The notes under the pieces: generated by a model
Database searches by the model: none
What the model saw: the letters and a program-made list of their open reading frames with translations, nothing else
Told to the model about the DNA's origin: nothing
Made by a program: the position numbers and the translations under genes
Source: Turritopsis dohrnii
Taxonomy: Eukaryota > Cnidaria > Hydrozoa > Anthoathecata > Oceaniidae
Assembly (NCBI GenBank): GCA_027922465.2
Contig: BQMF02000493.1
Span: 62,001-126,000 of the forward strand
Direction of reading: 5' to 3'
Length of the DNA: 64,000 nucleotides
Shown: piece after piece, positions 8,281-34,492 of the stretch
Layout of the letters: each line of letters starts with the position of its first letter
Position numbering within the stretch: the first letter of the stretch is position 1

Positions 8281-8315
8281 TGTAAACGCTGCACGAAAAC
8301 GTTCATAACTTGGAG

Positions 8316-12112: not shown

Positions 12113-12528
12113 ATGAAAAAGTTTGACTATTTGTTGCTTCTATTTTATGGGACCACTGTCGTGAGTGCCAGCGTTGCATATTCGAATATACATTATTGTT
12201 ACACTTATTGTGTGTCTCATTGGACAGCATGGAGTCCTTGTAGCAAGTCGTGCGAGGGTGGAATAACAACCCGATATGGAGCGTTTACGAGACATTCCTG
12301 GTGGTGTAGTGATGTCTGTAGAGGTGTTTCAAACAAGGAAGTGAGGCAATGTAATACGCAATGCTGTCCAAAACATTGTACGTATAACTATGGGAGATGG
12401 GGGTATTGTGTTGGATGTGGGGCTAATGGTCGACAGTATCGATTGGTTACTATAAGGACGAGAGAATCATGTGGAGGTACCTCTTGCAGACCTAATCATT
12501 ACGAAAATAGAAGATGCCAAGCAAGAAG
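12113..12528 (+). CDS. Variable first exon 1: signal peptide plus two TSP1 repeats
   Basis: The exon encodes 138 complete codons and ends at a 5' splice site, AAG|GTAATT, in phase 2. I start it at 12113 (MKKFDYLLLLFYG), which gives a clean signal peptide; an upstream in-frame ATG at 11999 adds a basic stretch that would spoil it. TSP1 domain 1 has the WTAWSPCSKSCEGG core; a CNTQCCPKHC linker leads to domain 2 (YGRWGYCVGCGANG, SCGGTSC). Splicing to 31917 would give a receptor of about 3,876 residues and restore the linker as Arg-Cys-Cys-Pro. The protein would be extracellular. Without splicing the frame stops at once (AGG TAA), giving a secreted protein of about 139 residues. No other protein-coding neighbour lies within 8 kb upstream. 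Confidence 0.8.
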
Positions 12529-13674
12529 GTAATTTAAAAGATTTTATGTTGGTTTTGAAGTTTTTCTTCTTTTTTTTTGCATATTATAAAAACGCAAATT
12601 ACTCAGTTCAGTTCAGTTCAGACAGAAAATTAGTCTTCTTTTGTTGACAATCTGAAAGAGACCTGGAATGAAATCATCTACGAGTGTTACTGTTGTTAAA
12701 TGTTGTAGACCATTGTGGGAGTCAGTTGTTTATTCAAATCTATCACTTATATATGAAAAATTTCCAAGGAAACATAATTGATAAACAAAAACAAAATACT
12801 AGAGTGTATTTCAAAAGAGAGTAATCCACAAGAACCCCTAATGCAACGAACATGTCGATTTGTCGAACCAAACTCCTACCTTCTCTCTAAAGAAAATCTT
12901 TGCTAACTGATTCTCAACAGTAAAAAGTATCGTCTTGAAAAAGCATACATATTCACAAGCCAGATGAACAAGTTCTTGTTGTCGTAAGATTAAGGGGGAT
13001 GGATTCCTAAAATTGTCACGATTTTATTGGGTGATGTAGTTCACAAGACATACTAAAATGGGTTGTGTCCAAATTTTTAAGAAACAATTATTAGAATTTC
13101 ACGAATGAAATCAGCACCATGAAAAGCCACACTTTTCATGAATCGAACAGTCTTCTTTTCCACCCTTCCCATATCAATAATTTGTAGATAAAACACTGGG
13201 TTCGAGGTTGGATATCGAAAGATTAAATATTAGAAAGGTTATTTGACCAAAACGACTGAGTCTAAAGGTTGATCTTAACAAAACACTGGGTTCGAGGTTG
13301 ATCTTAACAAGATAGTTTGTGATCAAGCCTTTATTATTTCTGTCTGTATTAAACGAACTTCATGCCTCGCTAATTCAAACGAAAATAAGAGACTTTCAAC
13401 CATAAAGATGAGCATGATGGTACAAACACATTTATGTACACAAAAACATCCGGTCGTTGGAATGTGCGCCAATGCAAAGTAACTTCGGTCATGTTTAAAG
13501 TCCTGATGGAGGATTTCGTTTCCCCAGATCAACTAACCCTCAGAAAATTCATAAATTCCCGGTCATTCATTAAAAACATTTTTTTAAACATGCTCTTACT
13601 CGACAGTAGGCAAGAATTTGACGCATGAGTAGTATTATTAACGGAACCTGCATAGACTGGTTTTTGCAAGCACC

Positions 13675-13682
13675 TATAAAAG
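13675..13682 (+). promoter_or_regulatory. TATA box of broken first exon at 13717
   Basis: TATAAAAG lies exactly 42 bases upstream of the ATG. The same spacing holds for the copies at 14457 and 15517, so the duplicated unit includes its own core promoter. Confidence 0.65.
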
Positions 13683-13716
13683 TAAAAACGACAAAAGCAA
13701 AAGCAAAAGCATTTTG

Positions 13717-14052
13717 ATGTGCATACATATTGTGGTTGTTGTCATGCAGAACCTAAGTCTTTTGTTTCTTCTGCTCTGTATGACCAACGCAGTGTGTCTG
13801 TGGTTTGACGTTAAAAAGTCTTGCGCAACGCATTGTACTTCCCCATGGACAACATGGTCGGTTTGTAGCAGATCATGTGATTCAGGAACCAAGAGACGCT
13901 CAAGACGCTTCAAAAACGACTTATGTGAGAAGGCGTGTGGTCATGTGGGGATATCATACTTTCAAACAAGTGGATGTAATACGCAATGCTGTCCAAAAAC
14001 ATTGTTCAGTTCAAACAGAAAATTAGTGAGAACTGGAACTGGAATAAAATAA
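13717..14052 (+). pseudogene. Truncated first-exon copy with one TSP1 repeat
   Basis: The start MCIHIVVVVMQNLSLLFLLL is a signal peptide, followed by TSP1 domain 1 (WTTWSVCSRSCDSG) and CNTQCCPK. The second TSP1 domain is missing: after CCPKT the sequence joins to CAGTTCAAACAGAAAATTAG, which resembles the intron sequence after first exon 1 (12610-12635), so a deletion removed the domain and the splice site. The frame continues to a stop at 14050 without a phase-2 donor. It could still make a short secreted one-domain protein; I rate it as broken with respect to the array. Confidence 0.75.
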
Positions 14053-14414
14053 TGCTTTTTGTAATTCTATGCTTCCGTAAACCAATCAAACTCTATCTCA
14101 ATTTTTCAGCCAACCATACCTACTAAACACAACATACGGCAAGGGAGGGTAAATTATGAATCTTTGATTCCAGCTGACATCAACATGATATCACGTGAAA
14201 TTGAAGTTATTATTCACCTGCTGCAATGTAACTTTAGTTTAATTTCCTGATGGAGGATTTCGTTTTCTCCAGATCAATTAACCCTCATAAAATTCATAAA
14301 TTCCCGGTCATTCATTAAAACATTTTTTAAGCAGGCTTTTACTCAACAGTAGACAGAAATTTGACGCATGCGTAGTATCAATGGAACTTGCATAGACTGG
14401 TTTTTGCAAGAATC

Positions 14415-14422
14415 TATAAAAG
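14415..14422 (+). promoter_or_regulatory. TATA box of broken first exon at 14457
   Basis: TATAAAAG, 42 bases upstream of the ATG, within a block duplicated from the neighbouring units. The palindrome GACGCATGCG lies about 50 bases further upstream. Confidence 0.65.
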
Positions 14423-14456
14423 TGAAAACGACAATAAAATTCACAAACGCATTTTG

Positions 14457-14879
14457 ATGTGCATACATATTGTGGTTGTTGTCATGCGGAACCTAAGTCT
14501 TTTATTTCTTCCGCTCTATGTGACCAGTGAAGTGTGTCTGGGATATGACACTTGTGAAAGGTACTGTACTAATACATGGACAGCATGGTCGGCTTGTAGT
14601 AGATCATGTGATTCAGGAACCAAGACACGCTCAAGATCGCTTGTTAAAATGCTGAGATGCAGGGATCTATGTCACGCGAGAACATCATCTATTCAAACGA
14701 GTCGATGTAATATGCAATGCTGTCCAAAACATTGCGCGTACAACTATGGGAGATGGGGTTATTCATTGAAAAAAAATTCATTGCAAATGCATCACATTAT
14801 GTTAGACTATATAGTTTCTTTGTGCGCTCAGTTTGATCACATGACTGTAAATAATGACCAGAGATTGGTTAGAAACTGA
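14457..14879 (+). pseudogene. Truncated first-exon copy, second TSP1 repeat cut short
   Basis: The start MCIHIVVVVMRNLSLLFLPL is a signal peptide. TSP1 domain 1 (WTAWSACSRSCDSG) and CNMQCCPKHCAYNYGRWGY follow. The sequence then jumps to a block starting CATTGCAAATGCATCACATT that matches intron sequence after the copy at 15517 (16180-16275). About 350 bases, including the rest of domain 2 and the phase-2 splice site, have been lost. The open frame ends at 14879. Confidence 0.75.
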
Positions 14880-15474
14880 CATGTTGGCGGCTTTAGGATA
14901 ATTATTCATATGGTCCAAGTCTCCCGATTTTAGTATTCAACCCCCGATCTCCCGATTCTTAATAAAGAAAGCTCCCGAATCCTAGAAAGTTGCTCAATTT
15001 GTTTTCTTATTTTGTTTTTCACAGTGTCTTCATTACTCCATCATGATTTTGATACCAGAAAGGCAACGTATTTATGTTGTCTAGATGCAAAATAGCATGC
15101 TGTCTGGGTTAAACGAGCTTCATGCCTCGTTCATTCAAACGAAAATAAGAGACTTTCAACCAGAAAGATGAGCATGATGGTCTCTTTTAGACAAATACAT
15201 TTATGTATACAAAAACATCCGCTCGTTGGAATGCAAAACTGTTCACTTTGCTCACTTACCACTAATGTGCGCCAATGCAATGTAATTTCGGTCATGTTTA
15301 AAGTCCTGATGGAGGATTTCGTTTCCCCAGATCAACTAACCCTCATAAATTTCGTAAATTCCCGGTGATTCATTAATTACATTTTTTTAAACATGCTCTT
15401 ACTCGACAGTAGGCAGGAATTTGACGCATGCGTAGTATCAACGGAACTAGCATAGACTGGCTTTTGCACGCACC

Positions 15475-15482
15475 TATAAAAG
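15475..15482 (+). promoter_or_regulatory. TATA box of first-exon copy at 15517
   Basis: TATAAAAG, 42 bases upstream of the ATG. The surrounding 120 bases are nearly identical to those before 13717 and 14457. Confidence 0.65.
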
Positions 15483-15516
15483 TGAAAACGATAATAAAAT
15501 TCACAAACGCATTTTG

Positions 15517-15950
15517 ATGTGCATACATATTGTGGTTGTTGTTATGCAGAACCTAAGTCTTTTATTTCTTCTGCTCTATGTGACCAATGAAGTGTGTCTG
15601 GGATATGACATAGATGTTATCTGTGAAATGTACTGTACCTCTCCATGGTCATTATGGTCGTCTTGTAGTAGATCATGTGATTCAGGAACCAAGAGACGCT
15701 TAAGATCGCTTATTAAAAGATGCTGGGATCCATGTCGTCACGCGAGAGTATCATACGTTCAAACGAGTTGATGTAATATGCAATGCTGTCCAAAACATTG
15801 TACGTATAACTATGGGAGATGGGGGTATTGTGTTGGATGTGGAGCTAATGGTCTACAGCATCGATTGGTTACTATAAGGACGAGAGCATCATGCGGAGGT
15901 AGATCCTGTTCTCCTCATCATTGGCAAACGCAGAGATGTAACACTGGAAG
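15517..15950 (+). pseudogene. Full-length first-exon copy with one premature stop
   Basis: Signal peptide MCIHIVVVVMQNLSLLFLLL, TSP1 domain 1 (WSLWSSCSRSCDSG), CCPKHC linker, TSP1 domain 2 (YGRWGYCVGCGANG, SCGGRSC) and a phase-2 donor, GGAAG|GTAACA, are all kept in frame. The only defect I see is TGA at 15769-15771, where the sister copy at 14457 has CGA (Arg) just before CNMQCCPK. That is a C-to-T change at a CpG, typical of a recent nonsense mutation. The 5' flank, TATA box and palindrome are intact. Read to the stop, it would give a one-domain secreted fragment. Confidence 0.8.
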
Positions 15951-16179
15951 GTAACACAAAGTTAAATATCTTTTATGGACGTTAACACAAAAATTTATTT
16001 CAATTTAACTTTGCTCAAACATGTTTCGATAAAATATACAAACCTTATGTTTAAATATATACATCGTAGTAGAGATGGCCGACATTTGCAACCAATGTTC
16101 GAGAGAAGAAGTATGGGTACAAACTTGCTTTTATCTTAATATCATTCAGTTTATCACTGTAGTTAAACCTTCAAAAATT

Positions 16180-16275
16180 CATTGCATCACATTATGTTAG
16201 ACTATATAGTTTCTTTGTGCGCTCAGTTTAATCACATGACTGTAAATAATGACCAGGGATTGGTTAGAAATTGAC
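16180..16275 (+). repeat. Duplicated intron block shared with 14782-14880
   Basis: CATTGCATCACATTATGTTA through TTGGTTAGAAATTGACATG matches the block fused to the truncated copy at 14457. It marks the deletion endpoint in that copy. Confidence 0.75.
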
Positions 16276-16990
16276 ATGAGATCAATGCGCAATAAAAATA
16301 GCTTTTATTGTTATGAAATAAACAAAGAGTTTCTATAAAAGACTACTTCTATAGTCTGAGCAATTCGGTGTTGATTATACGGCGGAACTTTTGTCGTGTC
16401 GAACTTTTGTCACGTCGAACTTTTGTCGTGTAAAACTCAATCTAATAGTCTGTATTTTATAAAATCACAAACATACTTAAACAAAAGTGGGAACGGGAAC
16501 GTCTAACGGCAGAACTATTGGTTTTAAGAATTGGTTTTAAGAAAAAAGTTCATCAAAGTTTATTAATGTCTTTATGTCCAAATAAAAATCTCTTGCTTGT
16601 CATGGCAGTCCCTTTAGAGTTAAATTCAATATCGGTTTTTCTTCTGGTAATTTTTTGTTAGAATACTTTTGAAACTAAACGAAAAGCAGGAGGCTTATTG
16701 AAGTCCAGAATTGTAATACATGAGCAAAAGGAAAGAAAAAGAAAAAGAAATGATATGATATGAAAAGAATTGTTAAATGGACCCTTCAAAAGTGTTTTCT
16801 GTGAAAATAACATCAGAAACTATCAATCTTTGAAATCGCATCTGACACTATTGATGTTACGGCGTAATCCAAGCTGACTGAAGATCAACAGGAACGAACA
16901 TGAAATCTTCGAATCGTCTTAAATACGCAATTCAAACATTTCAGAACATTGCAGAAAAAATTTTTGCGTCTCGTTGTCAACGCTTTCAAT

Positions 16991-17415
16991 ATGCGCATTT
17001 CTGTGCATGTTTTGATTGTCACCGCCGTTATTCTATGTCTGTTAGCGGCAACCGATGCTGGGTGGAGACGCAGGCGCCGAAGATGTTATCGCAACTGCGT
17101 AGTTTCTGGCTGGAGTGCGTGGAGCACGTGTTCAGCAACGTGTGGTTACTCAGGCGTTACACGAAGAACTCGATACAAGATCATCAACCAGCAGTGTGGC
17201 GGTTGGTGTACCTCGATATTTTCTCAAACAGTGCCGTGTAACAGAAGATGCTGTCCAAGCCATTGCGCTTACTATTACTCGGCATGGGGTAGCTGTGCAG
17301 GATGCGGACCGAGAGGAACACAAAGCAGGTCTATTGTCATAACACGGTACAACAGTTGTGGAGGGAGAGCTTGTCCGACAACTCGCGTACAGAGAAGAAC
17401 GTGTAACACTGGAAG
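16991..17415 (+). CDS. Variable first exon 2: signal peptide plus two TSP1 repeats
   Basis: I start at 16991 (MRISVHVLIVTAVILCLLAA), an excellent signal peptide; the longer open frame upstream adds residues not expected before it. After cleavage comes an arginine run (WRRRRRRC), then TSP1 domain 1 (WSAWSTCSATCGYSG), the CNRRCCPSHC linker and domain 2 (YSAWGSCAGCGPRG, SCGGRAC, CNTGR). The exon holds 141 codons plus two bases and ends GGAAG|GTTGGT in phase 2, like the others. Spliced to 31917 it would give about 3,879 residues. If unspliced, it continues about 16 residues to a stop. It is more diverged from exon 1 than the 13-15 kb copies are. Confidence 0.82.
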
Positions 17416-18752
17416 GTTGGTAGTAGTTTCCAATGAATATTATTTTATAATGATGTTATGTTGACAGCATCGCATTTTTTAGAGTGTTGTCTCCTGAGTT
17501 AGTTTAAAGCTGAGCATGTCTTTTCCTGTGAGTCAGACGTTGTCGCCAGTTCTTTAAAACACAACGATGGAGAAAACCTTGATCCTAAAAATAAAGTAAT
17601 ACTACGCGTGACATAAAACTGGACAACAGCAAAATTTACACTCTCTAATCCTGCTTGACTGTTTTCGCTTATAATTATATAATATATACAAGCCTTTTGA
17701 CGTGGAATTATGTTCTTTGGCCCGAAATGCGGTTTTCAATTAGATTATGAAAAATCAGATTAGAAATCGGCACAATATCACTGTACTATGGGTAAAATGT
17801 AGAGTTGATCTGATTGTGTATGTTCACTGCAATGGTTTCACGTTTGACAGTCCAAAATGTGAAGTAAACATTTTGTTTAACCTCCATAATATCAAACCAC
17901 GACAAAATCGTAAATTCCACGGAAAGTATAACTAGCATTTACAAGGGTGTTTTAAATACTCTTATATCAATACATTTTTGGTCACTACATACATCTCTTA
18001 CATGCCAATAGTAGTGGCAAAAAAGAACAGCAAAAGTACGGCTTTTCTTTTCCTTGCCATCAACAATAACCCTGTTCAAGTTCAGTGGGTGAAATCTTCA
18101 AAAAGTCTCTGCCATGTTAATGTGAAGGAAGCATAATGGCAGCACTTCTCCGCGGTGATTTTTTGAAGGCCATTCAACCGCCGGGTAAAAAATAATCACG
18201 TTAAACTATTGAAAGCCACGGTTCTGTCAGAAAGATCACTATAAAGACATTACACGTATGGCTTAATTAAGTACCCAAGAAACCCCTGCTTCTTTGACCA
18301 ATTCGCGAGACCCACTAAATTTAGTTTGACCCGGGAAAAGTCTGGTATGCCAATTACGCAAACAGAAGAACGAGTTTAACCTGATTTTTAAATTTATCAT
18401 ATGATGGTATCGGCAACTGTTATAGGATTGTTATAGACGTGCCAATTTAGTTTATTTCTGTGAATTTGGTTCATTCATCTAAACATCGTCAACTCCAAGT
18501 CACATTTTTGTCAACAACTGACAATAGAAATATCAAAAGCTACAAAAGAAAGCAAAAAAAACCTGACTAATCTTTGATAAGACTTTTAATTTTAGAGTAT
18601 ATGGTATCATATTACTTTTTCATATTCTGCAAGCCTGATACTCGTTTGTTTTGCGAATGCAATCTTAGGTCTAAAATTTGTTTATGTTTCTATTCTAGTT
18701 GAATACGAAACTTCGTCATTCTTACGCGAACAGACTCGCGAAATAATACGCA

Positions 18753-19141
18753 ATGAAGGTGACTGTTCCACCGTTAATTATTTTGTTGCTTTTCTGTGTT
18801 TGTGTTTCTTGATTGAACAAAAAATATACAGTTTGTGATAGACTGTGTTGGTTTCAATAGGGGTTCAATAGAAGTCTTGTCCAGAATGTTGTGAGGGAAA
18901 GGGTTTTAAGGAAACGATCAAAGACGTTTAAAGTCGTATATCAAGAGATCCCTGTCAACAGTTTTTCCTTTACTTATGATTTTAAATCATAAGATGATGC
19001 TGATCGTCTGATTGCACTTGTTATTTTTCTGATTGGATTAAGTGTATCGGGTGTGTACAAGGCATGCAGACATTAGAAAGTGCAGTTCATTTGGTGGAAA
19101 GCCATGTCTAGTAACTAGGGAAGACGATAAAATACTTGAAG
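18753..19141 (+). pseudogene. Decayed first-exon copy related to exon 19813
   Basis: It starts MKVTVPPLIILLLFCVCVS and hits a stop at once. Further fragments match exon 3 in order: TGTGATAGACTGTGTTGG (CDRLCW), GTTTTAAGGAAACGATC, TGTATCGGGTGTGTACAAGG, and TTTGGTGGAAAGCCATGTCT (GGKPCL). Even the splice junction survives: AATACTTGAAG|GTATTTTAG against AATACTGGAAG|GTATTTCAG. The 5' flank (GCAAGCCTGATACTCGT) also matches 19680-19697. It is an old tandem duplicate, now dead. Confidence 0.8.
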
Positions 19142-19812
19142 GTATTTTAGGTGTCTTTTTGTTTATAATTATGGCGACTACTTTGTCGATTATGAAAGAA
19201 CTGCTATGAATCCGTGGGTAAACGCGGGTCAGGGAGCTATTCATTAGTGAATCATTCTATTCACGTTTTCTCATGATGACATCAGTTTCTAAAGTTCTGA
19301 ATCAGGGAGGGCCCAGCACAGGTGTTTGATCAGTATGTTAAGTTTACAGTTGTGTATGACGGCTTCAAACTCCAATTCGTCAAACATTAATGCCATTCAC
19401 TCGTTTAGGTTTAGTTAGATATCCTATTACATTCGAAGGAATCATTTGTTCATGCTTTGAATTTTAACCTCTAGTCATGGGGATGGTCACCATTTGTATC
19501 AAGACGTCTGTTTCCATATTTTGTAATTAAGTAGATATTCTACTACATTTATGACTCGTTGATTTTCAATACTCCTTTGTCGACACTCTTGTCAATGTTT
19601 TATAAGCAACTAGATTAAAGAAATGATGTCATTCTCTTCAACCCAATCCAAAATTTTGGTGCATGCTATCAAGTTACCGTGCAAGCCTTATACTCGTCTG
19701 TTTTTCTTTTCGTTAAAATTTTTTTTGATAACACAATCTTTAGCAGAAATATTTGTTTTTCTTCGATATAGTTTCGAGATGAACATACTTCTTCACTATA
19801 ACAGAAATAGTC

Positions 19813-20231
19813 ATGAAGGTGGCTGTCGTACTATTTTTGGTTGCATGTTATGCTTATGCAGTGGAAACCACCCAATATTCTCCACATTGTGATAGATATT
19901 GCTTGAATAAATGGAGTTCATGGACTAGTTGTTCTGAATCTTGTGGATACAGAGGCGTTCGAAAGAGGACAAGAACCTTTCGAAAAGTACATCTGACTTT
20001 AAGGGATTACTGTCACAGCTTGTGCTATTATTTACGTTTTGAAAGCGAGAGATGCAATCGGAAATGCTGTCCAACTGACTGTTCGTATTATTTTACACAA
20101 TGGAGTAAGTGTACTGGATGTGGAGTACAAGGAATGCAGTACAGACAGGTTAAAATAAGAAACTTTAATTCGTGCGGTGGAAAGCCATGTCCAGCTACTA
20201 GAAAAGAACAAAGACGTTGTAATACTGGAAG
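19813..20231 (+). CDS. Variable first exon 3: signal peptide plus two TSP1 repeats
   Basis: Start at 19813 (MKVAVVLFLVACYAYA, a compact signal peptide); the ATG at 19779 is out of frame. TSP1 domain 1 is WSSWTSCSESCGYRG with RKRTRTFRK, then CNRKCCPTDC and domain 2 (FTQWSKCTGCGVQG, SCGGKPC, CNTGR). It holds 139 codons plus two bases and ends GGAAG|GTATTT in phase 2. Spliced to 31917 it would give about 3,877 residues. If unspliced it runs on nine residues to a stop. A dead sister copy lies about 1.1 kb upstream with a shared 5' flank, so this unit was duplicated together with its promoter. Confidence 0.82.
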
Positions 20232-20259
20232 GTATTTCAGTTATTCATTTTACTTATAA

Positions 20260-22881
20260 TTTTTGGTGACGATTACTTTGTCGATAAATCTAAAACCAAT
20301 CAGGCTAAAAGATCATGAAGCATTAAACTTTTATTGGACACGTGAATATTCCACTTCATTCCCCCAACTAGACAGCCTCCATCTGTGTGATATGGTTTCA
20401 GGCATGAAACATTGTCCTTGTAATATTTATAGTTGAAACACCAAGGAAGAAGAATATGCCACTAGTTACCCCTTTCCTTATAGTCTTTCAAGACCATGAT
20501 CCTCACACGGACTACATCTCAGTACCCTCTATAACCTTCCGTCCATAAATACGAAAGATTGTTTCTGTTCAGGGATTACAGGTTCCCTTCTTACATATAT
20601 TTATTTATTTATTTACTGACGATTGCGTGAGCATGAAACTATTAGTTTTGAAAATAACAAGCCTCATTACTTTCATGTAATCTGCTCTACCGCGTGTATT
20701 GAGCACTCTAGTGAAAAAGAGACAAGAAGATATATTTATATATATATATATATATTTCTCATCAGGGGACTGCGAAAGCAATTTTCAAACATTTCGTTCC
20801 AGTTTTGTAGCCAATCAAAATTCAAGCAATATCTGGTACAAGAACTGTCTGCGTTTAAAGGTGATGAACAGATTTAAATAGAATCTTATTGAGAATTTCT
20901 AACATAAATCTTTTAACTCAGCTCTCTTACAAGCTAACCTTAGTTCACTACGTCATTAAATATTTTTTCTTGTCACGAGAAATAACCAGTCGTCATGCCA
21001 AAAAAACACGATCTCCGGATTTCGAGATTTGATTCTCCAATCATATTTCTCGTTATAATCACGTGATAGGAACAAACATGATGGAGGAATGAATTGCGTG
21101 TCTTAAAAAAATTCTAACGGTGAGTTTGTAAACAAAACCTTGAGAACTTGAGAACACAAACAAACACAAACTGAAATTTCGATCCCTCTATTTGAAGTAT
21201 ACAGGCAAGTGTGCACGCATATATATTTGATAAAACTCTTCAAGAATGGCATGAGAAAAAATAAAACTTGAGAACACATACAACATAGCTTTAGCTAAAA
21301 CTTTGAATCATGGATATCGAAGGAAAGCTTCACGATTCATCACAAACCATCAGAAAAGACAATATCTTTTAAAAAAACAACACGAAAGAGTTCTATCCAG
21401 AAAAAGCAAAAAAAAAAAAAAAAAAGTTGTTATTTGTACAATGCTGACATCATCAGATTTGTAATTTATCTATATCAGGGTACAGGCCCCCTTTTTCTAT
21501 GTAGAGAAGTAACAGCCAGGCATCTTTTGTTGTTATTTTATCGTTAAAGTACATAGCGTATTGCAGATTTTTTCTGCCAACATATCATTACCTGCCTTAA
21601 ACGAATAATTGCACTGGCTTCTACACTTAGCCCTCTAATTAAAAATCACTTACAAGGTATAACCCAATGGGCAAATTTGTTAAAAAAAACTACGGTGAAG
21701 GAGTGCATTTCTATAGATATATACACACTATTTCAATGAAATTGCTCTTTGCCGCAGGGAATTTTTGACGATTTTGCCCGCTGTGAAAATTGCAGCTAAT
21801 AACAATTCTTTTGATCTAACGTCCTGTTCAAATTAACGCATACAGCGACATGTCTTAAAGTAAATCTATTCACCCGTGTTTCAAAATGTTTTCAAGGGAC
21901 AATCAAATTTAAATTAGACTTCGATGCTTTCATTAAGGTATAAAAAATGTTACACAGTCCATAAAAATAAGCACACACACACTTTAAGGGCATTTATAGG
22001 CTCACATAAAGGAGGGAAGGGTACTCGTAGGTGGCACTCCTTATTTCCACATAGAGGTGTTTCTGCATTTGCCCAACAAAAGGAAGCTAATCGGAGAATG
22101 TTTCCATGTTTTACACTGTTTATATTTAATTGAAAATTTCTTGCTATAATGAAGATTTGTGATTATTAGTAATATGATTTTGCCAATAATATGACTCTAT
22201 GAACACTGGTTTAATATAATGACTCTCCATCGAATATTTTATGCATTCCTATCTGTTCTTCCTGTGTAGAAAAAACACAGTGTTGGAGAGCAAGTTGGAA
22301 TCAAATCCTCAAATTTTCTCTCTATGAAAATTTTAAAATCTTTATAACATTCCTTAAATATCTTCCCTTGCCAGTTGTAACTAAAAAGATTAGTATACAT
22401 TATCTCATACTGACTGAGGAAGCTACTTTCTCATACTTGTTTCAAAATAAAAGTCACATAACAGGCCCTGTGGACCTTGTTGTTCATGTTTGTAAGAAGG
22501 GTTTGGTAACGAGGTTAATATATGTTTCAATCATATTTTGACAACTAACCACAATAAATGTTGTTAAAGTGGGATCAAATTCGAAATGATTGCACGTTAG
22601 AGTATTGCTGAATTTTTGTCTTCCTTGGAAAGATATTGAGGGGGTTAAAAAAGGACCAAAATTAATGAAACCAGTCATTAACCTGAACGTTAAGCACAAG
22701 GAAGATTGCAGAGACCCACATGTTACCTCAAAAGGTAACTTCATTGAAAGCGTGTAGTTTGTAGATTGTACCACGTGCGTTAAGCATTCCTCATTTCGCG
22801 AGTATCATATTACTAAAGCAAGCTAATACAAGCTAGAAACAAAATCACGTTTTATGGTTTGGCTTTTGATTTACGACAACC
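20260..22881. other. Gap between variable exons 3 and 4
   Basis: No exon is supported. It holds a (TA)n microsatellite at about 20728-20754, an A run at 21410-21425 and one MITE (21663-21786). Confidence 0.6.
21663..21786 (+). mobile_element. CCCAGTGGGCAAA MITE, copy 3
   Basis: Starts CCCAATGGGCAAATTTG and ends GATTTTGCCCGCTG, with the same internal GGAGTGCATTTCTATAGA core. Confidence 0.8.
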
Positions 22882-22988
22882 ATGCGAGTTATTCTATTAG
22901 TTTTATGTTTTCAACACGCTGGAAGCTTAGCATATCCTCCAGACGGAGAAGGTGAAGGAGGGGGAATCACCACCACCAGAAAGCCTAG
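22882..22988 (+). CDS. Variable first exon 4 (short): signal peptide plus Gly/Glu linker, no TSP1
   Basis: ATG at 22882 encodes MRVILLVLCFQHAGSLA, a clear signal peptide. A short acidic/glycine linker (YPPDGEGEGGGITTTRKP) follows, then AG|GTAGCT, a donor again in phase 2. The exon is 107 bases, 35 codons plus two bases, so it joins 31917 in frame and would give a receptor of about 3,773 residues that lacks the two variable TSP1 domains. Unspliced, the frame stops immediately (AGG TAG). It is too short for ordinary open-frame screening. Evidence is the signal peptide, donor and phase only, so chance remains possible. Confidence 0.55.
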
Positions 22989-24059: not shown

Positions 24060-25364
24060 TATCTTCAGTCCATTCTCCGACTCCTTGCCTAACTCCTTAC
24101 TAATAAGTGTATGGGATTTATCTAGAATTTTGAAGCATTCGTTACAATTAAACAATACACAAGAATTGTATGACAACTTCTTGCATTCCAAAACCTGCAA
24201 ACATATTACACCCTTGTCCCTTCTCCTCTGATTATTTCCTTAATTTTCTTGTAACGAAAACGAGGCTGACGGCATTGATTGACAGTAGCTTTTTCGTTAA
24301 TTTCAGCCAAGTGTTGTGTCAAGTCTAAATGACACATGGAATACAATATGAATTGCTATTACTAAGAGGTAAAGGATAACTCTAACTCCAACTTGTGGTG
24401 GGAAGAGAATTTGAGCATGATAATGGATTAAGAAGCAAATTTCACTTTTGTTTTCAAGTAGTAATCTTGAAAGTTTTTCTTGTTTTAATGAGTCTTGTCC
24501 AAGAAATTGTAGGTACGAACTTTTTCCATGGAGTCTTTCCAAGGTTAATGGAGCTTATGGCAAATGAACTAGATATTTAAAAATTAAGCATTCTGTTGAG
24601 AACAGATCTTGTAACGCGATCAGAGTAAGAGAATAATTCTATTTTTTTGATTATTATAAGGTATCAGACAAAATTTGGGAAGGCAAAAAAATATGTTCAA
24701 TGAGTTAAGTGCTATCGGTTGGAAGGTTAAAGGGGTTGGGTGGATGGTTGGAGCTGTGGTGTTTATTTTGTTTGTTGGTGATTCAGCTTTGGTTTGGTGT
24801 TTTTTGCCTGATCTCCGCTATTTCATGTAAGCATTCTCGTCACTGCATTAACAGGGATTCGCATGGACCTATGGGCTATTCATCGTTCTTGGTTGCGGCC
24901 ACAAAAAGACTACTTTAAAAAAGAATTTTCTCTCAACTTGTTGTTTAAGTCTTGCGGTTTTGTACCTTGAATTTCTTCTCGTTGTCAGACTTTATGGATT
25001 TTCAAAAGAGATCAGATTGATTTCGAATTGTATGTACTATCAAATTACAAGAACGCTCATCAACCACTTGCATCACAAACGTCTGGTTTGTGAATAAGTG
25101 TCTTGACTCTCACTTTCATTCATGTTGTCTACCGTGCAATTTACTTGTTCGAAAACCTTTTTCTTATAATGAATTTTTTGATTACACATCGTATTTTTCC
25201 AGCTATGTACTTTCTTTCTCTTTTTCTTTTATTGTGTTTTTGGTTATGAAGAAAATCTTCTCTTAGCTGAAGACACCCACTTACCATCCGAAAATTACAT
25301 AATACAAGGCTGAAGTAAGTGTTGTTATACAGATGTCTAGTGTCAAATACCTTTCACATACCGA

Positions 25365-25774: not shown

Positions 25775-25891
25775 CCCATTGGGCAAATTTGTTGAAAAAT
25801 CACTGCGAAGGAGTGTATTTCTATAGAAACATGCCCACTATTTCCATAAAAATGCTCTTCATCGCAGTGGCTTGACAATTTTGCCGATTGG
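25775..25891 (+). mobile_element. CCCAGTGGGCAAA MITE, copy 5
   Basis: Starts CCCATTGGGCAAATTTG and ends ACAATTTTGCCGATTGG. Same core, with a small deletion near the right end. Confidence 0.8.
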
Positions 25892-28311
25892 AAAAAATGT
25901 ATACTTTTCTGAATCCTCAGGTTGAATTTCAACTATTTGATTAAAAACTAAATTTCTAAAATATTTAAAAATTAATGAAAATGATCTAAACTGTTATTCT
26001 CCATAAGGGAGAACCAAATCGATGATAAAAAAGGGTGGTACAATTCTAGAGTTTAAAATGGTTACTAAATCCTGGGAACTACCCTAAAGATCGATGGGCG
26101 TAACTGCTGCTCAGATAGAAACGAAAACCTCACTTCACATCTGGTAATATTCTATCCAGATCTAAAGCTTCGTGAAAACTTAAGCAGGAAAAACGGTCAA
26201 GCTTCTAACCAAGATTTCGTTTCCTTCACATATCCATTTTGGGGAATTTCCAAATTTAATGTATTTTGCAAAGGTGCTCTTAATCTGAGCATCTAACTGA
26301 AGACACTTATATGGACATGGTATAGGTGTGTGCAAATATTTTTATTTGTATTTGAGGAAATCTTGAAAAAAAGTTTGTAGTAAAGTAATAATAAACAGGA
26401 TGAAATAGCTTAAATATTTGCTTTTGGTGATATCATTGAAGACGCAAGGTTTGTTTGCCATGTCTCTTTGTAAAAAAATCAGCGCCTGAAGTAATACCTG
26501 TGTAAATAAAGCTCTTAATCTGTGTAGAAACTCCACTTGGCTATCGAATGAATAAGGGTTCTTTCGCACAAAGCGTTTTATGGTAGCTATGGAGATTTTA
26601 GATAATATTGAAGTGGTATTTGCTTGAGAATAACAGAAAAACCCGAAGATAGATCGGCCTTGTTCACGATGAATATTGAGACTCAACGTACGCTGTATTT
26701 CATTAACTACTACGTATATTTCAATTGTGATAAGCAAAAGGTCCAGGAGTTAAAAATGGATTTTCCCCATTTCTAACTAGTTTCCCGGGTAAAATTTTTT
26801 ACCAGTTTTCATCAATTTCATCAATAATTAATCAATATCTATATCAACGAAAGTGATATCAATTTCTTGAAGTTTGTACACGATATTCTAAAGGACCTTA
26901 TAGAAGGTTGAGAAGATCTTAAGTTTTACATTTACTTAAGGAACTCATACTAAAGATATACTACCGTGGATATTGTTCAAAAGAAATACTTCAAGAGTAA
27001 CACCAAAGCAAGACAATATTTTTTTTATTTTAAATTACATATAATTTTTATAATTTAACTTACATATATGATTTAATATCTGACAACAGAAAATCACAGA
27101 TATTGCAAGTACAAAGAATCTAATGGCACGTGTCACCTGCTTGTGTTCATATATTTTAGTGAGTATTATGAGAGGTTAAAGCGTGTATACCCCTTCAACC
27201 CCTTGCCACATCCACATCTTTGAAATTAATTAGCTTTGTTTCAAAAGCGTCGACTTACCTGCTTTTCACGCGCTCTAAAAGCATTCTGATGATCTAACTC
27301 AGATTGTAAGCATCATTGTACGATTTGACATTCATATGCTTTAGCGATTGATATTGCATTACAATAAAGACGAATTTGATCAACAGGTTTTGCTCGTGAG
27401 AAACTTTCTTGCCAGCATGTCAAGACATGATGTAATTTAAACTAAACACTAACCTCTCCAAGGAACAAAAACACCGGAATCGCGGATTCACGTTCCATCT
27501 AGAAGTTTAATAAGGTTTGTGAAGGTTTTCTTACTATTGAACTCCCAGCAAAACCTTCTTGTAAATAATGTCAGAGGCAGGTACCACCTTCCGTAGATAT
27601 CCTATTAGAAACTACAAAAGTTTAAGGAAGTTTCGTGTGGAAAGAGGAACCATAATGATAACGTTTGACATTTATTTATATTTCTAATTTGGCCTCTTGT
27701 ATTTTTTGTCAAAATTTTGAAATTAATGGTTTGTACGATGTAGCTACATCCTTGCAACACTTGATCGTTTTGGAGTGTTACATTACATGTACGTGCGACC
27801 CAAAACAAGATCACCATAGCATCACCATACTTCACACCGCCAATATTTCGCAACAGACATCGTACGATGCGGATTTTCGATAATCCTTAACAAACATCAC
27901 CTGACAATGCATTGCTCGATATATTTATCAATTTTTAAAAAGCCTAACAAAATAAACCGTTTATAAACATCCCTTTTGTTTTCTTATTTACATGAAAGTA
28001 TGCTAGGATCAAATCTAGACTAAGCACATGGGACACAAACAAAGGGGCTGCAGACAGGGTCCAAAAGTTAATCGAATAAAGAAGTATTTCGTTCCCATTG
28101 CAAATTTGAAAACAACCCAGCGGGCACAAAGACGTCGTAAAGACGTCGTAAAGACGTCTTTTCAAGACGTCCCTAAGACGTCGCAAAATGGTCGCGAAGT
28201 GGGAATCTCAAAAGACGTCCCAATTACATCTTCATTGAGACGTCTCGATGACATCCCAACGACATCGTAACGACGTCGCAGGATTATGAAATTAACTCTT
28301 TCAAAAACTGT

Positions 28312-28390
28312 AATAGGCCACAGGCGGACCCGAACCTGGAACCTCTGGTGTGCCAGCCGAACTCGTAACCGTTATGCCACCGCTGCTTGT
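28312..28390 (-). repeat. tRNA-like segment inside the MITE
   Basis: On the minus strand it reads GTGGCATAACGGTTACGAGTT (A-box-like) and GGTTCCAGGTTCGGGTCC (B-box-like). No intact acceptor stem is visible, so I call it SINE-derived rather than a tRNA gene. Confidence 0.45.
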
Positions 28391-28450
28391 TGTCAAGACG
28401 TTTAAAAACATTTACAATCAATCATTCTATACAGACTGATTGCTTTTGAA

Positions 28451-28810
28451 AGTTTATAATTGTTTCGAAGGTCGTTATTCAATCCGTATAAAGACGTCCC
28501 AAAAACGTCGTAAAAGGATCCCAATTGCGACGTCTCGTTTCAGACGTCCCTACGACGTCCCAAAATGATCTTAAGTTTATAATTGTTTTGAAGGTCGTTA
28601 TTCAATCCGTATAAGGACGTCCTGAAAACGTCGTAAAAGGATCCCAATTGCGACGTCTCGTTTCAGACGTCCCTACGACGTCCCAAAATGATCTTAAGTT
28701 TATAATTGTTTTGAAGGTCGTTATTCAATCCGTATAAGGACGTCCTGAAAACGTCGTAAAAGGATCCAATTGCGACGTCCCGTTTCAGACGTCCCTACGA
28801 CGTCCCAAAA
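28451..28810 (+). repeat. Three 123-base tandem repeats inside the MITE
   Basis: AGTTTATAATTGTTTCGAAG begins each unit, at 28451, 28574 and 28697. Copies 2 and 3 are almost identical, so the expansion is recent. Confidence 0.85.
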
Positions 28811-29382
28811 TGATCTGGAAAGCAAACGACCATTTTACGATTAAAAAAAGACGTCTCAAAGACGTCTTGTGCCCGCTGGGAATGGTCAAAATGGTACAAG
28901 ATGCAAATTCTATCTTATAAAAGATTCACTTCATGAATATGTTTTACTTGAACAATTCTAGTGTTGTACGAGAAAAACTGTCATTCATTCTTATCAATGA
29001 TGGAGGTCTTAAAAAAGTAAAAAAGAAAATATTACTCATTAAATAACTAATAAAACCTTTCTGGATTAAATTTGAAACTTTTTAAATTTGAGGTCAGGCA
29101 AGGTATGCCTACATGTTTGAAAGCTTTGGTCGCACATGGCCTGATTTCTTCTCGTGTTTATTTACATCAAGACTCAAGATGAAAAGTATCCACGGATCAA
29201 ATATCATTTCCCATTCAAAGAGTATTAGAACATAAGGAGAAAAACTTTTTAAACAAATGAAATTAGAAAGTACCGAACTATGATAATATTTGTCTGCTAG
29301 TATCCTGACGTGATGTGTTAACTCCAGTGTGCTATCTCAGTCAGAAACATACAGTTAGATTGCATCAGCCGTCATAGACACG

Positions 29383-29822
29383 ATGAAGAGGGGTAGAAGA
29401 GGGGCAGCGAAGGCTTGCTTTCTTACCACGTTTTTGCTGTTTTTGACGTCAACTACAAGTCTATGGTGGGGAGGATCGCGAAGGCGGTCTTGTACAAAAC
29501 AGAACTGCAAACTATCATCTTGGAACCACTGGAGTGCTTGTTCCACCACGTGCGGTTATTTTGGCCAGCAAAGGCGAACAAGATATAAAACCGCCACGGA
29601 ATCCTGTGGTGGAACATGTCCTTCGTTGAGTGAAGAACGCCATTGTAATCTTATCTGCTGTCCAACGCCTTGCGTTTATAAATTTTCCTCATGGTCCGCG
29701 TGCAAAGGTTGCGGCAAAACAGGTACGCAAAATCGAACGCAGGTAATTGAAGTAAAAGAGAGATGTGGGGCAAAGTGCCCTCAACCAAGAACCGAAATTA
29801 GGAGCTGTACTCCACCGAATTT
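29383..29822 (+). CDS. Variable first exon 5: signal peptide plus two TSP1 repeats
   Basis: Start at 29383 (MKRGRRGAAKACFLTTFLLF), a signal peptide with a basic n-region. TSP1 domain 1 has WNHWSACSTTCGYFG, then CNLICCPTPC and domain 2 (FSSWSACKGCGKTG, RCGAKC, SCTPPN). It holds 146 codons plus two bases and ends AATTT|GTAAGT, a strong donor in phase 2; joined to 31917 the split codon becomes Leu rather than Arg. It is the member closest to the constant exons (about 2.1 kb away). Joined protein is about 3,884 residues. Unspliced, the frame stops at once (TTG TAA). This copy is the most diverged of the four. Confidence 0.82.
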
Positions 29823-31916
29823 GTAAGTCTAATTTTTCTTCAAACAATGCTGTTCCTTTTCGTTCTTCCCTCATCCTTTCACTAAAAAGAAGAAAAAGTC
29901 GAAAAAATCTGGAATTCAATTGGAATTCAACTGCTAGCTACTAAACAACGTTGTCGTTAAAAAGATTGTGAAATGGCTAATAATTACGTGTCAGACCGAC
30001 TGTCGTTGTTGTTTACGACTAAAAGCGACCAAAATAATGCTACTAAAGGCGACGTATTTTTATCACAAATGTTTTCTATCAATCGCATCCATCGGAAGCA
30101 CAGATCCGTTTCAATTTCATTGCTGAAGTTCCTCCTGATAAAGCAGGATTATTTTATATAAAACAACATAGCGTAGTATCACTTTGACTTGTCATAAAAA
30201 TAGATTCTACTAAGTTCAATCTGCTGTCTTAGCATTATAGTCATTACGGTCATAGGTGCATTTGTTTGGCACACTACTTAGGGACAGATTATAATGCAAA
30301 TGGAGGACGAAAAAAATGTCTTCTTAAGTGAAGGAAGGTTGAACGTGTAGATTGTCAATTAATTGGGCTTTTTCTTTTAAATTTTCTATTACAATTTGAA
30401 ATAAAATGACAAAGAAAAGGAATACAAATTGTAGAAAAACTTCTCTGTGGCCAATTTTTGTGCATTCCCAATCAATTTCAAACAGTTTTTGTCTCTTTTT
30501 TACTATTTTTTTTTTTTTTTAAATTCCGAACAATTGATTTAAAAAATTTACGGCAGGCGAATTGTTGTTGACATCTCTCATTTATGGCGCGTAGAAACGA
30601 AAACGCACATGTTTCTTTTGTAAATCTGTGAGACCTTCAAACCTTTAGTTTTTTTAAGTTTTATGGTGAAGTGTCTTTTTATGAAACCCAGCATGATAAG
30701 TGTAAATACGCGAGAAAAGCAAAATGTTTAATGATGACCTGATCATTCATCTTTTGTGTCAGGAAAATATTGAAAGTACAAGGGAGGTGACCAACCCAAT
30801 AAATAGCTTTTGCTAAATACAAGAGGGTGGCCTGTGGTAGATTTCTACTACAGGCCACCTTAAAATATTAGTTACAGATGTAATTGCTCTACAAAAACAA
30901 TAACAAAAAACAATTAACACAAAATCGGATTAACTAAAAATAAAACAAATTACTAAAACAATTACCCAAAATATATTTATATATAAATATTAGCTAGTTT
31001 ATGTAGCTATAAGTGTTAGGTAGTGGTTAATGGAGATGGATTTAAGTTTTGATAAGGTAAGGCTAGCAAGGTATGTGTTTGGAGTAGTTTGCTGATAAGA
31101 ATTCCACTGCTGGATTGAAAAGGGGAGTTAACGAGTTGGGGCCATATGAAGAAGTTTCTACAAAAAATAAAAGGTTAGTTTGGGAATGGCCATGGAGCCA
31201 GCTCTGGTTCCATATGGATGATCAATTTTGTGAAAATTTAGTGTTTGAAGAATGTCAATGGGTGAAAAGTGAAAAGTTTAAGTATATATTGGTGGACAAA
31301 TAGAATGCTCAGGATTTCAACCATATCAAAGGATTTAAGTATCACAAGAGTTGAAAAAATTGGAGGGGCTCGAGGTTCTTAGAGCCATTTTTTAAGAGTA
31401 AGAATTTGATGAGTGATAGAGTTGTCACATAGACCCCAAATTTGACAAGCATAGCGCATTATATGTGAAGCAAAGATTGCATAATAAATGTTAACAAGGG
31501 ACTTCTGGGGAATAAAATGATTGACTCTGAAATATATGGGGTTTCCAGTAGTTAAGGTGTTCGTCCAAACGAATACCTAGGTATTTTACATTTGTGATAG
31601 GATAGATACGCTTGTCTTAGTAGTTTTTGAAATGGGATTCATTGAAGGGATTTAGAATGTTAAAAGCCTCTTGTAAGTCAACAAATACACCGCAAGCAAA
31701 CTGACCATTGTCAAGTTTCGATCTAATGCACTCTAATAAGAGCATGGTATAATGCTGTTGTAGTGTTTTGTTATTAAATTTACATTCAAGTATAAAAGCT
31801 TTTTTCACAAGTACTGTTAGATGATTTCTATGGTCACAATGTAATCTTTCAACATTTAGTTTTAGTTTTGGAATTCAGTGATGTGGTTTCTGGATATTAC
31901 AAACATTTTCTTGTAG
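29823..31916. other. Gap between the last variable exon and the constant region
   Basis: Read as intron of the receptor gene. It contains a T run at 30509-30520 and a LINE fragment on the minus strand (31020-31810). I see no extra exon. Confidence 0.6.
31020..31810 (-). mobile_element. Non-LTR retrotransposon (LINE) reverse transcriptase fragment
   Basis: On the minus strand, 31808-31650 encodes LECIRSKLDNGQFACGVFVDLQEAFN, a reverse-transcriptase block with one of the catalytic Asp positions (VFVDL). After a deletion, 31620-31540 gives YPITNVKYLGIRLDEHLNYW, and 31510-31380 gives KSLVNIYYAIFASHIMRYAC then QIWGLCDNSITHQILTLKKW. These are the C-terminal thumb-region motifs of Jockey/CR1/L2-type LINEs. 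The copy is 5'-truncated and interrupted. It sits about 100 bases upstream of the constant region's first exon. Confidence 0.82.
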
Positions 31917-34492
31917 ATGTTGTCCAGTAAATTGTGTTGTTGGTCAATGGGGCAGTTGGAGTGCGTGTAATGCAGCTTGTGAGAAAAAAGGGCAGCAGAC
32001 AAGATCTCGCTCACTTACTCAACCAAAATGTAACGGAAACGCTTGCCCTACAGGAATTGAAACCAAGAATTGCAATGGTCCTTGCTGTAGACGTGACTGT
32101 TTGTTCACAAGCTGGTCTAGTTGGAGTAAATGTTCTGCACCATCTGGTATGTTATTCTATGATTTTTATTCTCTTCATCAAGCAAAAAGTAATCAGTTTT
32201 CTCCTAAAATAAAGCATCCATTGGTGCACTTATTAGACAGTCATCACAGTTTTATTCATGCTGGTGCTTAATTTTCTGTTTGTTTTCTCCTAACTCAAAA
32301 GAAATAAAATTTTTCAAAAAGAGATTTTAGGAAGCAATTTGTGATTAACTGTATAAAAGGAGGCCTTTTATCTTTTGTCAAACAACCACTTTTGTTACTG
32401 TCTTAATTGGTGTAGATAATGCTGATTTATTTGCTGGTTTCATTCAACATAATATTAATATTTTTGGTCTTCCATTATTTGTGTATTAAATAATATTCTG
32501 ATGATTATTATTCTTGTCTTACGGATAAAGTTTTCTAAATTCAGAAAACCTTGATTATCTTAAAAATAATTCTTTGCAGCAAGTCACTTTTGCTATCAGT
32601 ACATCTGCACAATGTGTCAAACCAGTAACTAAATGAGTTGCCTTCTATAAAACGTAAAAATGATTTTGCTGATTTCATTTTCATCTGTTATCACTCATTC
32701 AAACAACGAAAATGTGGTTTACAACAACAACTGTATATTGGTTTGGATTAGCATTAAAAGTTATCTTTGAGCAGATGATACACATTAACAACATTCAAAT
32801 ATCTAATATGGCTCAGTATAACCAACAAATAAGCACTGACCAGAAATCCTTCAAAATGGACCATGCAGTTTCACATAAATACAAATTCATTTCCTTAGGT
32901 GTTTGTTCTACTAATGGTGGAACTCAAGTACGTACTCGAAGAAAAACAAGATCTGCTTCCTGTGGTGGTACTTGTGGTAATACGCAAGAGTCAAGAAGAT
33001 GCACTCCAGTACCAGTTACATGCAGAGTAAATAGTGATAATCTTTTTATTTTGAGTGATAAAAATGAATGTCCTTTCTCAAAAACATGACACAGTGATAT
33101 GACTGTCAGCCTTTTCACTCTTTTTTATTGATATCAGCAACGTAACTCGTCCCAAGGCCTTAAAAAAGTTGCTTAATTTTTAGATTATTTCAAAATATTT
33201 ATCATTAGCTTTTATAAATTCTTGATAATAATGTTCATGCAGGTGTTGATAAACTCAGCATTGAGTATTTGCCATTTTTAGCAACCCAAAGTATTGGTTT
33301 GTTTTTACAGACAACACTGCCCAAAAAGTTGCTCAATATTGAATAAATGACCCCTAGTTCCTAGAATTTTAACTCTGACTGAAGAGAACTATTTTTTGTA
33401 GCTGTCAACCTGGGGAGCATGGGGATCTTGTCAATTAAACTCAGGCAAAACTTGCGGATCAGGAAGTAAAAGAAGACAAAGGGGTATCTTGCGGCAACCT
33501 TATTGCAGTCGGAGCTGCGACAACTTAATAGATACCAGTACTTGTATTCACAGTTGTTGCCCAGTTAACTGTGTCTACTCTGCATGGGGTGCATGGTCCG
33601 ACTGCTCTACACAATGTGGATCAGGTTTGTTTTTGTTCCTGTGTGACCATCACTTTAGTCACTTTAACCAAGCTGGATTTTTAAGATTCGAAAGAATTAT
33701 TTGAAAATTTAGAAAGGAAAAGAATTGATGATTAATTTTGTATGTGATGTTATAGGGATGAAGCAGCGTACCAGAAAGATCAAAACCCAGAGTTCTTGCA
33801 GTGGAATATCGTGTAAGCAAGATCAATTGAAAGAAAGCACAGTTTGTTCCAAATATGTCAATGTGAACTGTGTAATGTCTTCATGGAGTTCTTGGTCAAG
33901 CTGTAGTGTTGGTTGTGGAAGAGGCAAAAAATCCAGATCAAGACATGTCGTTCAGAGATCAAAATGTAATGGCACAAAATGTGGTGCACTGTGGGATTTT
34001 CAAAATTGTGTAAGCTACAGGGAAAGAAGAGATTGTGTGGTAAATGTTTGCCTATTTTATTGTGTACTAATGTGAGGTTGAATTTTTGATATGTATTATA
34101 TATCCATGGTGTAGTCCTTTTGCTCGACCTTAAAATAAGCTGAAAAGGTTTAATGGTTAGAAAGTCACCGTTATCACTAAATTTTCACAGAGCAATAACG
34201 CCATATTTTCCAGGAAAGACATAACACAAGTTTCTGACAGTCTTAGTAGACTCATGAAAAATAGGAGATTTGAACTTTTTGACCTTTTTAGCCTTTTTTG
34301 GACTGTGTTTATGACCACAGTATACATCTGATGTTCTGTTTTTGAAACACTATGACTCTTTGTGCTTTAAAGGTAACAACATGGAGTGTTTGGGGAATGT
34401 GTAGTGATCAATGTGCAGTTGGCATAAAGAAGAGAATAAGGAGTGTATCAGTTCAAAGTCGATGTAATGGCCAAGTGTGTCCAAGTCTGGAG
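31917..34492 (+). other. Constant-region block: six TSP1 repeats (exons 1-5)
   Basis: After the split codon the protein opens CCPVNCVVGQWGSWSAC. Further repeat cores are FTSWSSWSKCS, LSTWGAWGSCQ, YSAWGAWSDCSTQCGSG, MSSWSSWSSCSVGCGRG and TTWSVWGMCSDQC. The WxxW motifs and CSxxCGxG with basic strands are typical of TSP1 domains, which are often C- or O-glycosylated on Trp and Ser/Thr and bind glycans or partner proteins. Exon borders split domains in phase 1 at the CGSG turn, the usual TSP1 intron position. The sixth repeat lacks part of its C-terminal half. Confidence 0.88.

Follow-up and report, generated by a model that had tools for sequence, protein, structure and literature searches.

A tandem array of TSP1-bearing first exons probably supplies alternative tips to one cadherin receptor in the hydrozoan Turritopsis dohrnii

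In the UGT1 locus, tandem first exons that carry a signal peptide and the N-terminal recognition part are followed by a set of shared exons, and the variable exons undergo birth and death (PMC1885805, in the part of its text available). Among adhesion receptors, tandem variable first exons have been described in vertebrates (the protocadherins; available part of PMC7811963) and in chelicerates (sDscam; available part of PMC5775551). Here we describe a locus of similar layout in Turritopsis dohrnii, within a 64,000-nucleotide stretch of contig BQMF02000493.1 (assembly GCA_027922465.2, positions 62,001 to 126,000 of the forward strand; hereafter the window), which is animal DNA with a base composition of 35.6% G+C. 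An earlier note on this DNA had described an array of five exons, each with an ATG, a signal peptide and a phase-2 donor, as alternative first exons feeding one constant adhesion receptor. For four of these exons, which are homologous and encode two TSP1 domains each, this is the best-supported reading, and we consider it likely that they serve as alternative tips on one constant receptor, however the start is chosen; the reading does not extend to the fifth, at 22882, which encodes no TSP1 domain.

We name the five exons by order, with E1 starting at 12113, E2 at 16991, E3 at 19813, E4 at 22882 and E5 at 29383. The four intact first exons are:

12113 to 12528, + strand, 416 bases: E1, with ATG, leader, two TSP1 domains and phase-2 donor AAG/GTAATT
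16991 to 17415, + strand, 425 bases: E2, with ATG, leader, two TSP1 domains and phase-2 donor AAG/GTTGGT
19813 to 20231, + strand, 419 bases: E3, with ATG, leader, two TSP1 domains and phase-2 donor AAG/GTATTT
29383 to 29822, + strand, 440 bases: E5, nearest the constant part, with ATG, leader, two TSP1 domains and phase-2 donor TTT/GTAAGT

The first-exon copies occupy 17.7 kb upstream of the constant part. E1, E2, E3 and E5 are homologous, with protein identities of 33–45% and with leader, frame and donor position in common; 29 alignment columns are invariant across the four, 21 of them Cys, Trp or Gly (14 Cys), and a Cys-Cys-Pro linker lies between the two TSP1 domains within each exon. Among all scored + strand GTs, a generic splice weight matrix ranks the four donors within the best 1.1, 4.2, 4.4 and 8.3%, and the acceptor at 31917 falls in the top 4.8% of AGs. 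The weakest leader is that of E1, whose best 10-residue hydropathy of 1.95 (vs. 2.47–3.33 in E2, E3 and E5) lies just below the cut of 2.0 that the other three pass in our leader scan. We also built a first-exon profile from the four exons and two relatives and ran it against 2,091 six-frame open reading frames (ORFs). The four exons score 171–182 bits, which follows by construction as all four are within the profile, and the best matches from outside it are pieces of decayed copies (77 and 70 bits), followed by the exon at 31917 (52 bits).

Downstream of the array, a long + strand gene, spanning from about 12 to 57.2 kb of the window with the first exons included, continues as a constant part that runs from acceptor 31917 to a stop codon at 57203-57205. 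Its order is TSP1 domains, an EGF-like exon, a Sushi exon, a series of cadherins, EGF repeats, a transmembrane helix and a tail:

31917 to 32146, + strand: first constant exon, with phase-2 acceptor, the Cys-Cys-Pro closing TSP1 domain 2, TSP1 domain 3 and the start of domain 4
32899 to 34492, + strand: constant TSP1 exons (about 32899-33026, 33402-33624, 33756-34039 and 34373-34492)
35202 to 35652, + strand: cysteine-rich EGF-like exon (35202-35349) and Sushi exon (35435-35652)
35798 to 54707, + strand: cadherin-repeat exons, many exons in an approximate model
55142 to 57205, + strand: last exon, with the final cadherins, EGF repeats, membrane-near part, helix, tail and stop TGA

The helix lies at 56738-56803, and the tail encoded by the last exon carries the motifs NPMY, NPLY, NPLY and NPFF, so ordered. 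Taken together, the product is probably a very large adhesion receptor, a type I membrane protein of some 3,900 residues. The exon model of the constant part comes from a home-made dynamic programme and is approximate; several of its tiny exons (such as 32580-32624, 43292-43311 and 46858-46882) have no match in the relatives' alignment chains and are probably wrong. 'EGF-like' is our label for exon 35202-35349, whose sole Pfam match is TIL (E 0.0045, under that family's cut-off). Among 30 acceptors of exons longer than 110 bases in this rough model, phases 0, 1 and 2 number 18, 7 and 5, as approximate counts; most acceptors of the constant part thus differ in phase from 31917 and the four donors. 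The frame of exon 31917 holds 76 residues without any Met, bearing out the earlier proposal of a constant region that lacks a start of its own and opens with a phase-2 acceptor. Just before this acceptor, at 31620-31874 on the - strand, lies an ORF with no Pfam match at 0.01, which from a motif we take to be a piece of a non-long-terminal-repeat reverse transcriptase.

The acceptor at 31917 reads TTTTCTTGTAG/A TGT TGT CCA, in phase 2, and joining the four exons to it would give CQARR-CCP, CNTGR-CCP, CNTGR-CCP and CTPPNL-CCP. These joins agree with the earlier proposal of Cys...(Arg or Leu)-Cys-Cys-Pro, the same linker as found within the exons. The second TSP1 domain is incomplete in the first exons, with the Pfam TSP1_spondin match reaching profile position 49 of 52 in E3, and the TSP1 match of exon 31917 begins at its residue 6, following the Cys-Cys-Pro. 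In an alignment with properdin, Cys-Cys-Pro falls on Val-Cys-Pro, its second Cys on the Cys of properdin; this second Cys is presumably the closing Cys of the TSP1 domain.

We then asked which acceptors offer such a continuation. Between 12529 and 35000, 315 acceptors scored at least 1.9, and 20 of these were followed by a Cys within three residues and by at least 20 open codons. By coding-plus-donor score, exon 31917 ranks first among them (22.2); 14 belong to first exons, to dead copies or to the constant TSP1 exons, and the remaining five (17851, 19151, 21205, 30256 and 34664) open frames of 21–41 codons with scores of 2.6–9.6. Outside the first exons and relics, none of the 315 acceptors other than 31917 and the sites of the constant part is a convincing phase-2 site for completing the TSP1 fold. 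Over the whole window and both strands, 11 phase-2 acceptors are followed by Cys-Cys, with Pro next in three: 31917, 33554 and 17248. The last lies within E2 with a splice score of -0.6, and splicing into 33554, within the constant TSP1 part, may occur. As for splicing from one first exon into the next, in-frame phase-2 acceptors between the upstream stop and the ATG reach 2.7 before E2 (46 bases upstream) and -3.2 before E1, with none before E3 or E5; with no such acceptor above 2.7, we rejected this route. Since no first exon has a good in-frame acceptor and nothing convincing between them and the constant part completes the TSP1 fold, the four exons are predicted to join 31917, which, within the window and at a score cut of 1.9, is the entry to a single downstream set of start-less exons and the only compatible continuation. 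The homology of the four exons, their common phase, their dependence on exon 31917 and the dead copies described below are direct observations on the DNA.

Two relatives' proteins connect such a first exon to this body. P0167 is the Clytia hemisphaerica 'protocadherin Fat 4-like isoform X3' (3,885 aa), and P0212 is a contig protein of 3,874 aa, presumably cDNA-derived because its 3,874 residues sit on a contig of 12,002 bases. In both protein models a leader and two TSP1 domains run directly into the equivalent of exon 31917, indicating that one first exon is joined to the constant part. Residues 29-137 of P0167 match the first exons and residues 139-217 match 31918-32151 with 66% identity; in P0212 the N terminus matches the first exons likewise, and residues 139-221 match 31906-32151 with 58% identity. 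The remainder is collinear with the window in chains of 27 (P0167) and 29 (P0212) blocks, and the domain order is the same as here (TSP1, EGF-like, Sushi, cadherin, EGF, transmembrane, NPxY tail), with 17 and 18 cadherin stretches, respectively, at the Pfam threshold in the two relatives and 37% identity to the gene described here over the last exon. Seven further proteins (P0001, P0006, P0008, P0043, P0044, P0056 and P0222) match the last exon over 94–100% of its length with 28–40% identity and bear NPxY-type repeats in their tails. By domain order and full-length collinearity, the gene thus belongs with the medusozoan TSP1-EGF-Sushi-cadherin receptors (Clytia 'Fat 4-like').

The first exons match these relatives at best with 41–44% identity over about 110 residues, compared with 66 and 58% for the next exon. 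The first exon of P0167 is closest to E2 (94 bits, with E5 at 86) and that of P0212 is closest to E5 (104 bits, with E2 at 89). In a tree, E5 falls on the relatives' side and E1-E3 group together with weak support (72/86), in a topology where two of seven inner branches are well supported and P0212 sits on a long branch; E1-E3 may be lineage-specific additions.

The array also contains first exons in several states of decay:

13717 to 14049, + strand: Ea, decayed first exon with leader and first TSP1 domain kept, second TSP1 domain and donor lost
14457 to 14876, + strand: Eb, decayed first exon with leader, first TSP1 domain and the start of the second, then other sequence
15517 to 15950, + strand: Ec, near-intact first exon with two TSP1 domains, phase-2 donor AAG/GTAACA and one in-frame stop
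18753 to 19131, + strand: E3 relic, interrupted by several stops and frame breaks, found by tblastn and blastn

Ea, Eb and Ec are tandem duplicates of the E1 type, each with a second ATG 27 bases beyond its start (13717, 14457 and 15517). The end of Ea runs into sequence matching 12611-12634 of the intron after E1, and over 228 bases of leader and upstream DNA, Eb is 73% identical to Ea and 93% identical to Ec. The E3 relic is matched by tblastn at E 1.2e-5 for 18875-19102, with weaker pieces at 18753-18941 (E 1.5) and 19060-19131 (E 0.025), and by blastn with 67% identity over 222 nt (20064-20285 vs. 18997-19190). A further trace at 24460-24624 (tblastn E 0.01, profile E 0.004) is doubtful as a relic. 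In all, at least four dead TSP1 first exons stand beside the four intact ones in the array, which we read as a sign that it grows and decays through tandem duplication of whole first exons plus their upstream DNA. Two kinds of repeat were observed in or next to the array region: a 123-base tandem repeat of three copies at 28450-28816 and a dispersed 121-base repeat of four copies (10569, 21664, 23938 and 25774), the others being 72–85% identical to the first.

The fifth exon proposed in the earlier note is of a different kind:

22882 to 22988, + strand: E4, leader-like ORF of 35 residues with a phase-2 donor and no TSP1 domain, unsupported as an array member

E4 has no Pfam match at 0.01 and is not matched by the first-exon profile. 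ORFs combining an ATG, a leader and a phase-2 donor occur three times in about 55 kb of control strand (two on the - strand of 10001-31900, one in 1-10000 and none in 57301-64000, the latter two counted on both strands), from which about 1.2 would be expected in the array region, where the + strand carries two such ORFs that lack TSP1 (22882 and 24693). E4 was rejected as a fifth first exon on its lack of TSP1 and a frequency close to the chance rate, and the count of at least five receptor isoforms accordingly comes down to four exons.

In the arrangement we favour, E1, E2, E3 and E5 would serve as alternative first exons and would probably be transcribed from separate starts; each would supply a signal peptide and two TSP1 domains and splice from its phase-2 donor to the shared acceptor 31917, and one receptor body would thereby bear at least four different membrane-distal tips. 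From the upstream sequences, an own promoter for each first exon appears likely. The E1 subgroup carries a candidate element:

11977 to 11988, + strand: ATTTGACGCATG upstream of E1, also present before Ea, Eb and Ec, a possible promoter element of this subgroup

The core TTTGACGCA has four copies on the + strand of the window, one each ahead of E1, Ea, Eb and Ec at a distance of 97–135 bases from the first ATG, and a single copy on the - strand (5634). The DNA upstream of E1 is 51–56% identical to that of Ea, Eb and Ec (122/237, 133/236 and 124/235), with exact runs of 12–14 bases, and the element may reflect chance or simple descent.

A number of observations weigh against alternative use of the four exons. 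At least four of the eight TSP1 first-exon copies are dead, and the intact ones may be little used too. As the exons are homologous, the phase they have in common is one event rather than four. The joins of E1, E2 and E3 to 31917, three of the four, are predicted from sequence, and the two relatives each display one first exon, leaving alternative use unproven by them (the Clytia cluster of P0167 has eight member sequences, and the first exon was compared for P0167). The acceptor scan covered scores of at least 1.9, and it returned an unexplained + strand phase-2 frame beside the E3 relic (19151-19227, 31 codons, score 9.6) with an early Cys. Read-through beyond the E2 donor adds 15 residues ending in Cys, making a spliced partner not the sole source of this residue. 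In a comparison of the DNA upstream of E1, E2, E3 and E5, with Ec also included, no common word was found beyond A-rich 8- to 12-mers; the best common 8- and 12-mers lie within the range of six shuffles and the best 10-mer is one mismatch better, and we rejected a promoter element of all four exons, the best words being A-rich and near shuffle level. Finally, acceptor-like AGs lie 2 bases before the ATG of E1 (score 5.1; first exon base 12111) and 8 bases before that of E3 (4.6; 19805), and E1 and E3 are among 5 of 452 ATGs in 10001-31900 with an acceptor scoring at least 4.5 within 10 bases.

The last of these observations bears on the mode of choice. E1 and E3 may be preceded by a 5' untranslated region (UTR) exon or by a spliced leader, such as hydrozoans add (available part of PMC11067881), and one could suppose that an unseen common 5' UTR exon or a trans-spliced leader joins one of E1, E2, E3 and E5, with splicing picking the tip among mutually exclusive second exons. 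The two AGs and the hydrozoan spliced leaders speak for this version, which we regard as unlikely. The best acceptors within 300 bases before E2, E4 and E5 score 3.3, 2.5 and 3.7, respectively, with none within 30 bases of the ATG, and the upstream DNA of E1, Ea, Eb and Ec, with its exact 12-base element, fits promoters copied along with the exon. Such a version is contained within the four-tip layout judged likely above, and a start from a spliced leader or common 5' exon would change the mode of choice and leave the resulting proteins unchanged.

It is less likely still that E5 is the sole first exon of the receptor, with E1, E2 and E3 being separate small genes for secreted two-TSP1 proteins that remain unspliced or use private exons. 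In favour of this, E5 is nearest the constant part and lies with the relatives in the tree, separated from E1-E3 with support of just 72/86, and translation continued past any of the donors runs into a stop within about 50 bases. However, without splicing the products would miss the domain-closing Cys-Cys-Pro; a single-exon gene has no need of a donor, yet its position and phase are preserved in E1, E2, E3 and the decayed Ec; and the 315 acceptors contain no convincing private exon. Least probable of all, and by our estimate hardly credible, is that E1-E3 are non-functional leftovers of a 5'-end duplication that are open by luck, as several clearly dead copies might suggest, given that E1, E2, E3 and E5 are just 33–45% identical and yet keep cysteines, frame and donor intact, and that, when the 141-codon E2 frame was simulated with substitutions only and no selection, 18 of 2,000 trials left it open at 0.3 neutral changes per site, 10 did so at 0.6 and none at 1.0.

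If E1, E2, E3 and E5 are alternative tips, the product most likely acts in adhesion and swaps its outer tip according to tissue, stage or cell type. The tips would differ in what they bind, and might serve partner discrimination. The suggestion of self/nonself recognition found no support, with four intact tips making a small repertoire and the ratios of nonsynonymous to synonymous change (dN/dS) giving no clear diversifying selection. Whole-exon dN/dS is 0.48–1.0 in the six pairs among E1, Ea, Eb and Ec; the first TSP1 domain of Eb vs. Ec has dN 0.163 and dS 0.088 (18 and 3 changes, in dead copies). Positive selection on the first exons is not supported by these counts, which are small and involve dead copies. 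In the way that a neuron selects one protocadherin promoter, each cell might pick one first exon and display the TSP1 tip as a label of cell identity or allorecognition, a prospect we hold to be very doubtful; if true, one-exon-per-cell choice would place promoter-chosen adhesion codes outside bilaterians.

Several other features surround the locus. Upstream, a DDE_Tnp_4 nuclease fragment (6252-6968, + strand, E 3e-14) and a MADF DNA-binding domain (8802-9158, - strand, E 4.6e-18) form a pair that we take to be a Harbinger-like transposon, and an ORF at 4006-4398 on the + strand resembles the end of a membrane protein (a hydrophobic stretch, basic residues and PPSY near the end) with no Pfam match at 0.01. 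Downstream of the receptor lies a homeobox gene at 61039-62960 on the + strand (Homeodomain E 6e-19), with further long ORFs to about 62.96 kb.

The locus thus has four homologous, intact, tandem exons with their own ATGs and phase-2 donors, as expected of a variable-first-exon array, and their status as first exons in transcripts we infer. The comparison with UGT1 and the protocadherins drawn in the earlier note fits, and Ea, Eb, Ec and the E3 relic add to it a further hallmark, that of decayed first exons (available part of PMC1885805). As in UGT1, the first exons are of similar length and frame, dead copies and relics are present, and the variable part is less conserved than the constant one. 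UGT1 differs, as far as the available part of PMC1885805 describes it, in that it encodes an enzyme, has about a dozen such exons in mammals, and has promoters that were shown, with an upstream motif on each exon; here the predicted product is an adhesion receptor, and the upstream motif is confined to the E1 subgroup.

With the clustered protocadherins alpha and gamma the locus has in common the cadherin superfamily, tandem variable exons that start the protein, and one set of 3' exons (available part of PMC7811963). Unlike here, the protocadherin variable exon, as described there, encodes the whole ectodomain and the membrane helix, and the constant part is intracellular. In our locus variation would be limited to the two outer TSP1 domains, on a body whose cadherins, helix and tail do not change; stochastic promoter choice is described for the protocadherins. 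We rejected an identification as a clustered protocadherin, the variable exon encoding two TSP1 domains rather than a six-cadherin ectodomain with a helix.

The closest layout is that of the chelicerate sDscam-alpha and -beta genes, in which tandem 5' cassettes of one or two outer domains stand on an adhesion receptor, with alternative promoters and lineage-specific expansion (available part of PMC5775551). Those cassettes, according to the same part of that source, encode immunoglobulin domains, occur in arthropods and number up to 62, whereas here TSP1 domains stand on a cadherin body with four intact cassettes. Among the matches listed in the open-access literature, judged by titles and the starts of abstracts, we found no description of this gene or layout in cnidarians. 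The layout as such is already known, and its use in this TSP1-cadherin gene class and in the cnidarian phylum appears undescribed; to our knowledge, there is no earlier case outside bilaterians. A TSP1-cadherin case in a cnidarian would be a further, independent instance of variable-first-exon adhesion receptors, and, with variation limited to the outermost tip of a protein some 3,900 residues long, it would offer a clean test of the role of that tip.

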